Below are positions 29,285 through 32,310 of a DNA stretch of 36,885 bases, in pieces. The notes beneath the pieces are model-generated. The model did not search any database and was not told the DNA's origin. It was given only the letters and a program-made list of their open reading frames with translations. The stretch covers positions 1 to 36,885 of the forward strand of contig CADBIY010000015.1 in assembly GCA_902794895.1 (NCBI GenBank). The letters are read 5' to 3'. The stretch comes from Candidatus Avelusimicrobium vaccinum. Lineage in GTDB: Bacteria > Elusimicrobiota > Elusimicrobia > Elusimicrobiales > Elusimicrobiaceae. The number at the start of each line of letters is the position of its first letter. Position 1 is the stretch's first letter. Made by a program: the position numbers and the translations under genes.

Positions 29285-30780
29285 TGCATAAGATTTGCCG
29301 TATTATAGGGGGACTTTTCTTTTTAAGTGGGTTGTTGATGGGTTGTGTCCAAGAACAAACTACACCCATTCACCTCTTTTATACGGCAGATACCGAAGGA
29401 TTTTTTTATAGCCGTCCGGAACCTCGGTGGAATAACCGGGAAACGGGCGGCTATGCTGTTTTGAAAAGTTTTTTGGAAAAACAAACGGAGCCCTTTTTAC
29501 TTTTAGACGGCGGAAATTGGTTTGGCTCTTCCCCGGAGAGTGCCATGACTCAAGGGGCCTATATAACCCCCTTATTACAAGCAGTGCCTTTTTCTGCGGC
29601 AGCCGTTACGGAGAACGATTTTGTTTTCGGCTGGCCTGCTTTGCGAAGTGTTATACGTACACAAAAATTTCCATTTATAGTTTCTAATGTTACCTTGGAT
29701 AATAAAATTCCGTGGCCCATGCATAATTACCAAATTTTTACACAACACGGTGTTAAAATTGGATTGTTAGGGATCGTTAACCCGCAAGTACTTGAAAAAC
29801 ACAAAGCACGTTTAACCGGATTTGTGGCTAAAGACCCGATAGAAACCAGCCGGGAAATAGTTTCTTTATTGCGAGGAAAAGGCGTAGATTATATTGTTGT
29901 GCTCAGTTCGTTGGGAGAATCCGACCAACGCTGGACGGATACTGCGTTAGCCGCAGAAGTAACCGGCATTGATTTAATTTTAAGTGCTAATAAAGGCATA
30001 GAGCGGGCTGAGGTGGAAGAAGTCAATCATACACCGATTGTATATCCGGGATCCCGATTGGATAGTATTGCGCATATTACGCTTACTTTTACAAGCAGTA
30101 AACAATTAAAAAAAATTGATTTTGAAGACATTGTTCTTTTTCAAGATACTTACGGGGCGGATGAAAAATTGTCGGAGCATATTCGGCAAATACGGGAAAC
30201 TACCCGCCAGAAAATGACCGCTCGCCTTACGCAAGTAGAGCAAGACGTAACACATGATTTGGCGGATGAATCCCAATTAGGGGATTTGTTGGCTGATTGT
30301 TTGCACCGTTGGGCCAAATTGGATGGAGCGGTATTAAACTCGGATTCTTTACGCAGCCCGTTCGTTAAAGGCGTTATTAGCGAATATGATCTTTATAATA
30401 CTTATCCCTACGGAGATAACATTACTTTTATTACAATTCGCGGCAAAGATTTTATTCGCGCATTAGAAGCCAGTTTGGAAACGAAAGATAATTTTCCGCA
30501 AATTGCCGGCTTTTCCGTTTCGTATAATCCACAGGGCCCTCTTGGTAAAAAAATCCGGCAAGTAATTCTAGCAAACGGACGCATCCTTCGCCCGGAAGAA
30601 AAATACCGTTTTGCAGTAACCGATCATATTTTAGCGGGCGGGTTTGGACATGATCTTTTTATTAACTCGCTAGAATTTAAAAACACATTTGTAGAAGCCC
30701 GTCAAATTATGCGTTCGTGCTTGTTGCGGCAAAAAATAGTTGCCGTGCCGGCTAAAGGACGTTGGAAGAAAATAAAATGA
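29284..30780 (+). CDS. Lipoprotein paralogue of the 5'-nucleotidases, predicted catalytically dead
   Basis: The 498-residue product starts with a lipoprotein signal ending in LLMGC (Cys21), so it should be lipid-anchored. The two-domain nucleotidase layout is kept, but the metal sites are not: SDxHG has become ADTEG (Asp36 kept, His to Glu), DSGD is DGGN, GNHEFD is TENDFV, the HDS histidine is replaced by Ser, and GGHAHK aligns with SANKGI. In the C-terminal domain NxGGTR is NSDSLR and the FPF-type motif is YPY. The gene is intact, not a pseudogene, so I infer a binding or partner role rather than hydrolysis. It overlaps the gene before it by one base and dusB after it by four. Confidence 0.85.
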   Translation: MHKICRIIGGLFFLSGLLMGCVQEQTTPIHLFYTADTEGFFYSRPEPRWNNRETGGYAVLKSFLEKQTEPFLLLDGGNWFGSSPESAMTQGAYITPLLQAVPFSAAAVTENDFVFGWPALRSVIRTQKFPFIVSNVTLDNKIPWPMHNYQIFTQHGVKIGLLGIVNPQVLEKHKARLTGFVAKDPIETSREIVSLLRGKGVDYIVVLSSLGESDQRWTDTALAAEVTGIDLILSANKGIERAEVEEVNHTPIVYPGSRLDSIAHITLTFTSSKQLKKIDFEDIVLFQDTYGADEKLSEHIRQIRETTRQKMTARLTQVEQDVTHDLADESQLGDLLADCLHRWAKLDGAVLNSDSLRSPFVKGVISEYDLYNTYPYGDNITFITIRGKDFIRALEASLETKDNFPQIAGFSVSYNPQGPLGKKIRQVILANGRILRPEEKYRFAVTDHILAGGFGHDLFINSLEFKNTFVEARQIMRSCLLRQKIVAVPAKGRWKKIK

Positions 30781-31739
30781 ACGAAATCCATCCGTTGAAA
30801 ATAGGTTCCGTTGTGTGTGCCAATAATTTAGTGCTTGCACCTATGGCCGGAATTACAGACAGTCCCTTTCGCGTGCTTTGTTTGCGCGGCGGTGCGGGAC
30901 TGGTGTGTGCGGAAATGGTTTCCGCACATGCGCTTCATTACGGAAACGCAAAAAGCGGCCGGATGTTGCAAGTAAATCCGAAAGAGCACCCGGTTTCCAT
31001 GCAAATTTTTGGTTCGGATGAACAAACGATTGCGCAGGCCGCGCGTAACGCCGAACAGGCCGGAGCAGATATGGTGGATTTAAATGCAGGCTGTCCGGTT
31101 AAAAAAATTAATAAAGCCGGGGCCGGATGCGTATTGATGAAAGATGAATTAAAATTGGGCCGTTTGATAGAATCTGCCGTGAAAGCCGTCAAAATTCCGG
31201 TTACGTTAAAGACGCGAATTGCGCTCAATCATCAGGAAGTTTTAGGGGCACGGTTGGCAAAATTAGCCGAAAATTGCGGTGCGGCGGCGGTTACGTTGCA
31301 TGCCCGTGCGGCGGTGGATGTACATAGCGGGGAACCGAATGTGGAAGCGTTGGCCCAAGCATGTGCCGCAGTAAAAATTCCGGTCATTGGTAACGGCGGG
31401 GTTACAAGTGCCGCGCGCGTAAAAGAGTTTATAGAAGCAGGTTGTTCGGGCGTAATGATTGGGCGCGGCGCCGTGGGAAATCCGTTTATTTTTCAAGATA
31501 TTATGGATGAACTTGCCGGACGGACTCCGCAACAACACACTCCACAAAAGCGGTTAGAAATTTATCAAGCACTTATTGAAGAAAATGTGGCCTATTACGG
31601 CGAACGGATTGGGGTTAACCGCAGCCGCAAGACTGCCGGATATTGGATTAAAGATTTCCCGAACGCGTCAGAAGTGCGGGGCCAATTTGTACGGTTAGAC
31701 ACGCTAGCGGAAATTCAGGCACTTTTTGCAGACGTATGA
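30777..31739 (+). CDS. dusB: tRNA-dihydrouridine synthase
   Basis: This flavoenzyme reduces specific uridines of tRNA to dihydrouridine with NADPH. The 320 residues form the Dus TIM barrel: APMAGITDSPFR at about 19-30, QIFGSDE, the catalytic cysteine in DLNAGCPVKKI, TLKTRI, TLHARAAVDVHSG with its binding histidines, IPVIGNGGV and GVMIGRGAVGNPFIF. The motif set fits DusB, though Dus subtypes are hard to separate by eye. ATG 30777 overlaps the previous stop as ATGA; the in-frame TTG at 30762 would extend into the upstream gene. Last gene of the nucleotidase operon; no terminator is visible before the promoter at 31760. Confidence 0.93.
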   Translation: MNEIHPLKIGSVVCANNLVLAPMAGITDSPFRVLCLRGGAGLVCAEMVSAHALHYGNAKSGRMLQVNPKEHPVSMQIFGSDEQTIAQAARNAEQAGADMVDLNAGCPVKKINKAGAGCVLMKDELKLGRLIESAVKAVKIPVTLKTRIALNHQEVLGARLAKLAENCGAAAVTLHARAAVDVHSGEPNVEALAQACAAVKIPVIGNGGVTSAARVKEFIEAGCSGVMIGRGAVGNPFIFQDIMDELAGRTPQQHTPQKRLEIYQALIEENVAYYGERIGVNRSRKTAGYWIKDFPNASEVRGQFVRLDTLAEIQALFADV

Positions 31740-31799: not shown

Positions 31800-31833
31800 T
31801 GCGTGGAAGATGCTGAAACAAGTTCAGCATGAC
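31800..31833 (+). repeat. Left inverted palindromic repeat of the GIY-YIG unit
   Basis: Outer part TGCGTGGAAG, then a perfect 8-bp hairpin ATGCTGAA-ACAAG-TTCAGCAT, then GAC facing the gene. A T-rich stretch follows, so it could also act as a terminator on the plus strand. Confidence 0.85.
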
Positions 31834-31858
31834 TTTTCTTTTGATGGATTTACTAAAT

Positions 31859-32134
31859 ATGCCTTTTATTTATATCCTTACAAACAAAACAAATCAGGTT
31901 CTGTATGTAGGAGTTACCAATAATTTAACGCGGCGTTTGTATGAACATCAGCAGAGAATACAAGACGGATTTTCTAAACAATATAATTTATGCAAATTAG
32001 TATATTGTGAAAACTGTGCCAGTATGGTGGATGCTATTGGCAGAGAAAAGCAGTTAAAAAGATGGCATAGAAACTGGAAACGCAATTTAATAACTAAGCA
32101 TAATCCTACTTGGAAGGATTTGTTAGCTTCTTAA
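31859..32134 (+). CDS. Small GIY-YIG nuclease-superfamily protein
   Basis: The 91-residue protein is one minimal GIY-YIG domain. IYIL (4-7) and YVG (16-18) form the two signature strands, Arg25/Arg26 in NLTRRLYEH supply the catalytic arginine, and Glu63 in GREKQLKRW the metal-binding glutamate; the end KHNPTWKDLL is typical of the YhbQ-like stand-alone family. All key residues are present. I start at ATG 31859 (MPFIYIL), the usual family start; an in-frame ATG at 31829 lies inside the left repeat. No strong ribosome binding site is seen. Being enclosed by inverted palindromes suggests the nuclease may act on, or mobilise, these repeats; its biological target is unknown. Confidence 0.88.
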   Translation: MPFIYILTNKTNQVLYVGVTNNLTRRLYEHQQRIQDGFSKQYNLCKLVYCENCASMVDAIGREKQLKRWHRNWKRNLITKHNPTWKDLLAS

Positions 32135-32143
32135 AATTATTAG

Positions 32144-32177
32144 GTCATCCTGAACTTGTTTCCGGATCTTCCACGCA
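32144..32177 (-). repeat. Right inverted palindromic repeat of the GIY-YIG unit
   Basis: Inverted copy of 31800-31833 with three substitutions. GAC again faces the gene. Its hairpin is ATCCTGAA-CTTGT-TTCCGGAT with one mismatched pair; the G-C pair at stem position 3 of the left copy is C-G here. Confidence 0.85.
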
Positions 32178-32207: not shown

Positions 32208-32234
32208 GACAAAATTTACAAACTTTTATATAAT
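32206..32234 (+). promoter_or_regulatory. Promoter of the rplM-rpsI operon
   Basis: AAGACA (-35, 32206-32211), 17-base spacer, perfect TATAAT (32229-32234). Predicted start near 32241 leaves a leader of about 70 bases. Confidence 0.6.
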
Positions 32235-32253
32235 ATATAGGAAACCACGAGTC

Positions 32254-32289
32254 ATTAAGACAGCGGCCACCACTCCGCTGCGCATTAAT
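32254..32289 (+). promoter_or_regulatory. Candidate ribosomal-protein leader hairpin before rplM
   Basis: CAGCGG (32261-32266) pairs with CCGCTG (32275-32280), loop CCACCACT; an outer ATTAA/TTAAT helix (32254-32258 with 32285-32289) closes an asymmetric internal loop. It ends eight bases before the GG of the ribosome binding site. L13-S9 operons in other bacteria are known to have autoregulatory leaders; this one I do not recognise as a named class. Confidence 0.45.
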
Positions 32290-32310
32290 TACAAAAGGTA
32301 GAAACAAAAC

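Follow-up and report, generated by a model that had tools for sequence, protein, structure and literature searches.

The locus between dusB and rplM in Candidatus Avelusimicrobium vaccinum is probably a compact nuclease-REP unit, in which the gene for an Ssn-type nuclease lies between two copies of a palindrome that the enzyme would recognize and cut and may spread. Comparisons among genomes show that the nuclease gene and its GTC-tagged palindromes form one transferable unit of ~370–400 bp, which is located at many unrelated sites in many phyla. By the same comparisons, the presence of the unit is accompanied by many orphan palindromes in the genome. The window analyzed here is a stretch of 36,885 nucleotides (contig C15) from a genome of 1.45 Mb (G000).

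Architecture of the locus and the encoded nuclease

The gene (31859–32134, + strand) encodes a single-domain GIY-YIG nuclease of 91 aa (PF01541, E = 5.6e-17). Its left neighbor is dusB, encoding tRNA dihydrouridine synthase B (30762–31739, + strand; TIGR00737, E = 4.6e-90), which is also the neighbor in relatives with an empty site. Its right neighbor is rplM, encoding ribosomal protein L13 (32311–32736, + strand; TIGR01066, E = 1.2e-51). An earlier note on this DNA described two 34-base inverted repeats with three mismatches around the gene, and a repeat search recovered the same arms (31800–31833 and 32144–32177; 34 nt, 31/34 or 91% complementary, with 310 nt between them). Each repeat is composed of a GTC tag, a 21-bp palindrome, and a 10-bp tail. 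The left arm reads TGCGTGGAAG + ATGCTGAA-ACAAG-TTCAGCAT + GAC, and the right arm reads GTC + ATCCTGAA-CTTGT-TTCCGGAT + CTTCCACGCA. The left palindrome (31810–31833, − strand) has an 8-bp stem, a 5-nt loop, and a gene-facing GTC tag at 31831–31833, which reads GAC on the + strand. Its outer non-palindromic tail is located at 31800–31809 (− strand; TGCGTGGAAG, or CTTCCACGCA on the strand of the GTC tag). The right palindrome (32144–32167, + strand) has its gene-facing tag at 32144–32146 and one mismatch in the stem, and its outer non-palindromic tail, CTTCCACGCA, occupies 32168–32177 (+ strand). On both arms the tags are inside and the tails outside, which confirms the symmetric placement of the non-palindromic parts claimed before. 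When folded as single-stranded DNA, the left hairpin reached −7.1 kcal/mol (z = −3.8), and the right hairpin was weak (−2.3, z = −0.9) with one stem pair broken. This pair is intact in the sister genome, G039.

The catalytic Arg and Glu were said in the earlier note to be intact in the 91-residue protein. The PF01541 match and the conservation of R25 and E62 in relatives support this statement. With the codon at 31862 as the start of numbering, the residues conserved across 15 relatives include Y4, Y15, G17, R25, H29, E62, and N81. An alternative in-frame ATG at 31829 would extend the protein to 101 aa and would place the start at the palindrome edge. The AlphaFold2 model shows a GIY-YIG fold with a pLDDT of 92.6. 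A sequence search against the PDB gave no significant match; by Foldseek, the best match was the UPF0213 protein 1zg2 (BH0048; probability 1.00, E = 1.8e-3), followed by Slx1 and the N-terminal domain of UvrC. Assignment to a defense system was not accepted because the PADLOC matches (JetD and PDC-S14) were weak and partial only. The genes of G000 and G039 differ at three positions, and all three differences change the amino acid; strong purifying selection is unsupported. Because of these changes and the stem pair lost from the right hairpin, the unit in G000 could be at the start of decay. The enzymes of the genus cluster with one from an uncultured Elusimicrobium sp., and the nuclease locus of a genome from the same order matches a named Elusimicrobiota MAG at 100% identity; these relatives assign G000 to the Elusimicrobiota.

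The leader of rplM (window 32226–32310) is strongly conserved in relatives (GAAACCACGAGTCATTA ... GCGGCCACCACTCCGC ... TAATTACAAAAGG), and a nested stem is possible. A comparison of this leader with Rfam gave no match at the gathering threshold, and no base pair with both sides changed was found in the stem across relatives. The segment could be a candidate for an L13 autoregulatory leader.

Insertion sites, borders, and distribution

The gap between dusB and rplM is about 125–185 bp long and empty in most relatives (about 20). A gap of 572 bp with the unit was found only in G000 and its sister G039, and a few other relatives have longer gaps filled with other DNA. No relative was found to keep the gene at this place without repeats around it. 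The earlier note had proposed that an empty gap in relatives would give the exact borders of the unit. The empty gap is present, but divergence of the intergenic sequence prevents an alignment good enough to give the borders; they were therefore read from other pairs of loci. The 18 nuclease loci in the genus represent at least ten different sites. At one of them (L058), the unit starts about 10 nt past the upstream gene's stop codon and is followed by a stretch resembling a terminator, and its flanks are also too diverged for borders. At G004:C7 and G037:C5, the nuclease unit is located between the same two neighbor genes. In G011:C12, which has these neighbors too, the nuclease is about 1 kb away, apparently past the right neighbor, and this may be a preferred region.

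Borders were compared between loci that share the nuclease and have unrelated flanks (37 comparisons, partly non-independent). Similarity stopped no more than 3 nt from the left GTC in 30/37 and no more than 4 nt from the right GTC in 29/37. Units with the outward layout have a median length of 376 bp (quartiles 364–404). In 92 of the 96 unit ends of the family, GTC is preceded by C or T. Target-site duplication was absent from 44/48 outward units of the family, and none longer than 3 nt was found. A classical IS or MITE was rejected for this reason. A GIY-YIG homing endonuclease was also rejected, since the gene is intergenic with palindromes on both sides and no recognition site of its own within a gene or intron is interrupted. 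Palindromes lie on both sides at 74 loci; of these, 49 have outward tags, 13 have inward tags, and the others show a mixed arrangement. The GTC tags of the window unit face inward, which is the minority layout, and its ends may therefore be the tails instead of the tags.

In the 1.45-Mb genome, the pattern GTCATNCTGAACTNGNTTCNGNATCT with up to 3 mismatches gave 40 matches, and a reversed control pattern gave none (copy numbers of palindromes are taken from pattern searches throughout). The matches include the two window copies and about 23 further sites. The repeats are not unique to this locus. Of the complete units and orphan palindromes that the earlier note envisaged at many loci, the orphans were found, but only one complete unit is present in this genome. 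Many orphan sites are ~98-bp dimers with outward tags and the arms CTGAACTTGATTCAG and CCAAACTTGATTTGG, and the tail-like sequence ATCTTCMACG recurs next to many orphan palindromes. A larger intergenic repeat of up to ~390 bp encloses about 15–16 of the 23 orphan sites; therefore, the copies there are not independent dimer insertions. This repeat is lineage-specific, being nearly restricted to G000 among eight genomes tested. Separate copies of its two halves exist as well; a palindrome marks the junction, in the manner of mosaic REP arrays, and the halves look as if recombined there. An example of the repeat, with a 98-bp palindrome dimer, is L026 (G000:C1:20310-20700). When empty copies of the repeat were sought within G000, the flank halves in the matched copies abutted a palindrome. 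Most orphans in G000 have the loop CTTGA and a second arm of the type CCAAA...TTTGG, and the palindromes of the resident nuclease have the loop CTTGT. Most of the orphans fit slightly better to the palindromes of a different nuclease of G039 (L081) than to those of the resident. Their sequences thus suggest that an earlier nuclease may have made the orphans in G000.

A close homologue of the nuclease was found in 13 of 49 genomes of the genus. The number of palindromes per genome ranges from 1 to 51 with the nuclease (n = 13) and from 0 to 7 without it (n = 36); some nuclease-free genomes hold a few palindromes, up to 7. At least 8 palindromes are present in 9/13 nuclease genomes and in 0/36 of the others (Fisher, 3.5e-7; Mann-Whitney, 7e-8; kinship is ignored in both). 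A search for a Y1/RAYT transposase (PF01797) in the G000 genome found none, and RAYT was rejected as its mobilizer on this ground. The transposase was likewise absent from each of the palindrome-rich genomes G004, G011, G037, G038, and G039, and of the eight genomes of the genus with the most palindromes, six have no Y1 transposase. A locus in G045 (L084; C2:65000-68260) contains a regular array of palindrome pairs with a period of about 101 bp, which adjoins the nuclease gene, and a Y1 transposase frame with one interrupting stop is located about 0.8 kb away. In the sister family (f2), a palindrome of the type CCGGC...GCCGG is commonest in G062 (34 copies), and the nuclease of this genome is flanked by that type. 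The same is true of the nuclease of G073, which ranks third in copy number (11). G067, with 14 copies, lacks a close homologue of the nuclease.

For a wider survey, the family alignment was scanned against 84,980 species genomes, and the best 80 homologues were taken. They belong to more than ten phyla, including Pseudomonadota, Bacteroidota, Chloroflexota, Planctomycetota, Nitrospirota, Spirochaetota, Omnitrophota, and Patescibacteria. GTC-tagged palindromes are located on both sides in 45 of these 80 and on one side in 14, and several of the remaining homologues have imperfect GTCATT...AATC palindromes that were missed by the strict hairpin test. In DNA up to 250 bp from the gene, perfect hairpins of any sequence have a density of 3.86 per kb, compared with 0.38 per kb at distances above 800 bp. 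Of the 153 near hairpins, 127 bear a GTC tag that continues with AT or AC. For GTC-tagged hairpins, the densities are 4.11 per kb near the gene and 0.16 per kb far from it, which is a 26-fold difference. The type of palindrome tracks the type of nuclease on the tree, with 25 changes versus 40.9 in shuffled data (0/200 as low) and a rank correlation of 0.29 (0/1000 permutations), although so short a protein gives a nuclease tree of poor resolution.

Some homologues are located on plasmids or in contigs classed as viral. In IMG/VR, 34 viral-classed contigs with homologues were observed (L196–L229), and about half of them have tagged palindromes. The homologues in L220–L229 and similar contigs have no palindromes nearby, and a palindrome-free branch of the nuclease may exist. 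On plasmid p1 of Planktothrix agardhii (L232, 16859–21113), a homologue with GTCATTCTGAGTGAAACGAAGAATCTC repeats is located between an MmeI-type restriction enzyme and the DISARM gene drmA. The palindromes of this class have stem mismatches and were missed by the strict hairpin search.

Proposed mechanism and alternative explanations

We propose that the enzyme would bind the palindrome once extrusion has turned it into a single-stranded hairpin, as could happen on the template of the lagging strand or in DNA entering by transformation, and would cut the hairpin beside the GTC tag. We infer such binding and cutting by analogy with the Neisseria relative described below and from the unit ends at the tag. 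After cuts at one or both hairpins, repair by the host or strand switching would copy single palindromes, dimers, and on occasion the whole unit into new intergenic places, and both palindromes and units are presumed to spread in this way. GIY-YIG enzymes hydrolyze DNA and form no covalent link with it; therefore, the joining must fall to the host. The nuclease-REP unit would be a functional parallel of REP/RAYT and not a transposase. Since the same package of enzyme and hairpins is found in many phyla, the nuclease family is so far the strongest candidate for the agent that cuts these widespread orphan repeats and perhaps spreads them. A stronger version is less likely than not: the unit would be a self-spreading element that depends on a hydrolytic single-strand nuclease and host repair and not on a transposase, and such units would be the long-missing mobilizers of GTC/CGTC-tagged palindromes across phyla.

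The main rival is a role in the service of the host. A domesticated Ssn would regulate DNA uptake by cutting incoming single-stranded DNA at the repeats, and the palindromes would be kept as its sites and would not have spread through its action. A role in uptake is reported for Ssn in N. meningitidis; a ComEC homologue is encoded in the G000 genome, and the gonococcal relative lies within dRS3 arrays. However, the patchy presence in the genus (13/49), the differing sites, and the sharp ends of the unit look like those of a mobile passenger, and the homologues on plasmids and viral-classed contigs also argue against this explanation. We regard it as rather unlikely, and it is not exclusive of the preferred reading.

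In another explanation, the palindromes would be spread by other machinery, such as RAYT, an IS, or recombination of larger repeats, and the nuclease gene would only mark old insertions. Mosaic REP arrays are known to spread through recombination, and most copies in G000 are inside the ~390-bp repeat, of which separate halves exist too. However, no Y1 transposase was found in G000 or in the five palindrome-rich genomes named above, and the 10- to 26-fold enrichment of hairpins around this gene over the flanking DNA extends over many phyla. This explanation is considered improbable. A role as RNA elements of the nuclease transcript (terminators or mRNA stabilizers), with the enrichment of the palindromes reflecting local regulation, is very improbable: the left palindrome with the T-rich sequence after it scores as terminator-like and the unit at another site starts just past a stop codon, but one terminator-like match compares with 0.9 expected in shuffles, and terminators need neither palindromes on both sides, mostly with outward tags, nor the same tag in all phyla, nor similarity ending at the tag.

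Comparison with known systems

The nuclease-REP unit resembles the REP/RAYT system (REPtron, TnpA-REP) in that the enzyme gene is flanked by hairpin repeats, which are also present as orphans and dimers. In both systems the tag adjoins the hairpin and no target duplication is formed. They differ in the tag and the enzyme, which are GTAG and an HUH-Y1 transposase in REP/RAYT and GTC and a GIY-YIG nuclease here. The earlier note had recognized a REP/RAYT-like layout with an enzyme other than a transposase; the layout holds, the gene encodes a GIY-YIG protein, and the genome is without a RAYT. The window enzyme shares its fold with the UPF0213/YhbQ-type proteins (1zg2) and the GIY-YIG domains of UvrC and Slx1. 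Distant GIY-YIG homologues from the same order (L074–L080) differ from it in having no tagged palindromes nearby.

The closest parallel is the Neisseria protein Ssn. The enzyme of N. meningitidis was reported in 2025 to be a site-specific single-stranded DNA nuclease of the GIY-YIG superfamily. It is said to act on a sequence with hundreds of genomic copies and to affect transformation, and its family is reported to include thousands of homologues with differing specificities. The homologue in N. gonorrhoeae, whose locus we take to be that of the published Ssn, has about 45% identity to the window enzyme over 87 aa and is located among dRS3 repeats (CCGTCATTCCCGCGCAGGCGGGAATC). Because this homologue is flanked by dRS3, the window enzyme was placed in the Ssn nuclease family. 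From its sequence, it is probably a new member that acts on CGTC-class REPs. Both are small single-domain GIY-YIG proteins with intact catalytic residues (conserved Y, YxG, R, E, and N here), and in both cases a repeated palindrome, here the putative substrate, surrounds the gene and has many genomic copies. The window enzyme is homologous to a Neisseria protein that lies amid dRS3/NTS repeats. It differs in its host phylum, Elusimicrobiota, in the sequence and loop of the palindrome, and in its organization as a single compact unit rather than in large arrays. This kind of system is not wholly new, since a GIY-YIG family whose cognate sites are repeated has been described in Neisseria. The borders of the unit and the empty sites are reported here from sequence.

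The CGTC-tagged REPs have a stem of 8–9 bp starting with AT, a loop of 4–5 nt, and an unpaired tail that is usually CCA, and they mostly form dimers (Di Nocera et al. 2013, PMC3733652). They include dRS3 of Neisseria and RPE-4 and RPE-6 of Rickettsia, apparently lack a dedicated transposase, and were reported without an associated enzyme (PMC3733652). The window palindromes share the GTC tag at the end, an 8-bp stem starting with AT, a loop of 5 nt, dimers in opposite orientation, and an intergenic location. In contrast, the window copies have AGTC and GGTC instead of the strict CGTC/TGTC/CCTC tag, their tail is CTT and not CCA, and they are associated with a GIY-YIG nuclease. CCA is the commonest tail in the wider nuclease family (82/148). 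We regard the window palindromes as a close variant of the CGTC-tagged REPs. The present data link these widespread small bacterial repeats to a single small nuclease family that spans more than ten phyla. Within the genus, the presence of the nuclease predicts the number of palindromes, and RAYTs are not needed there. The question of what spreads or maintains CGTC-type REPs can thus be put to the test with a protein of 91 aa and a hairpin of 26 nt.
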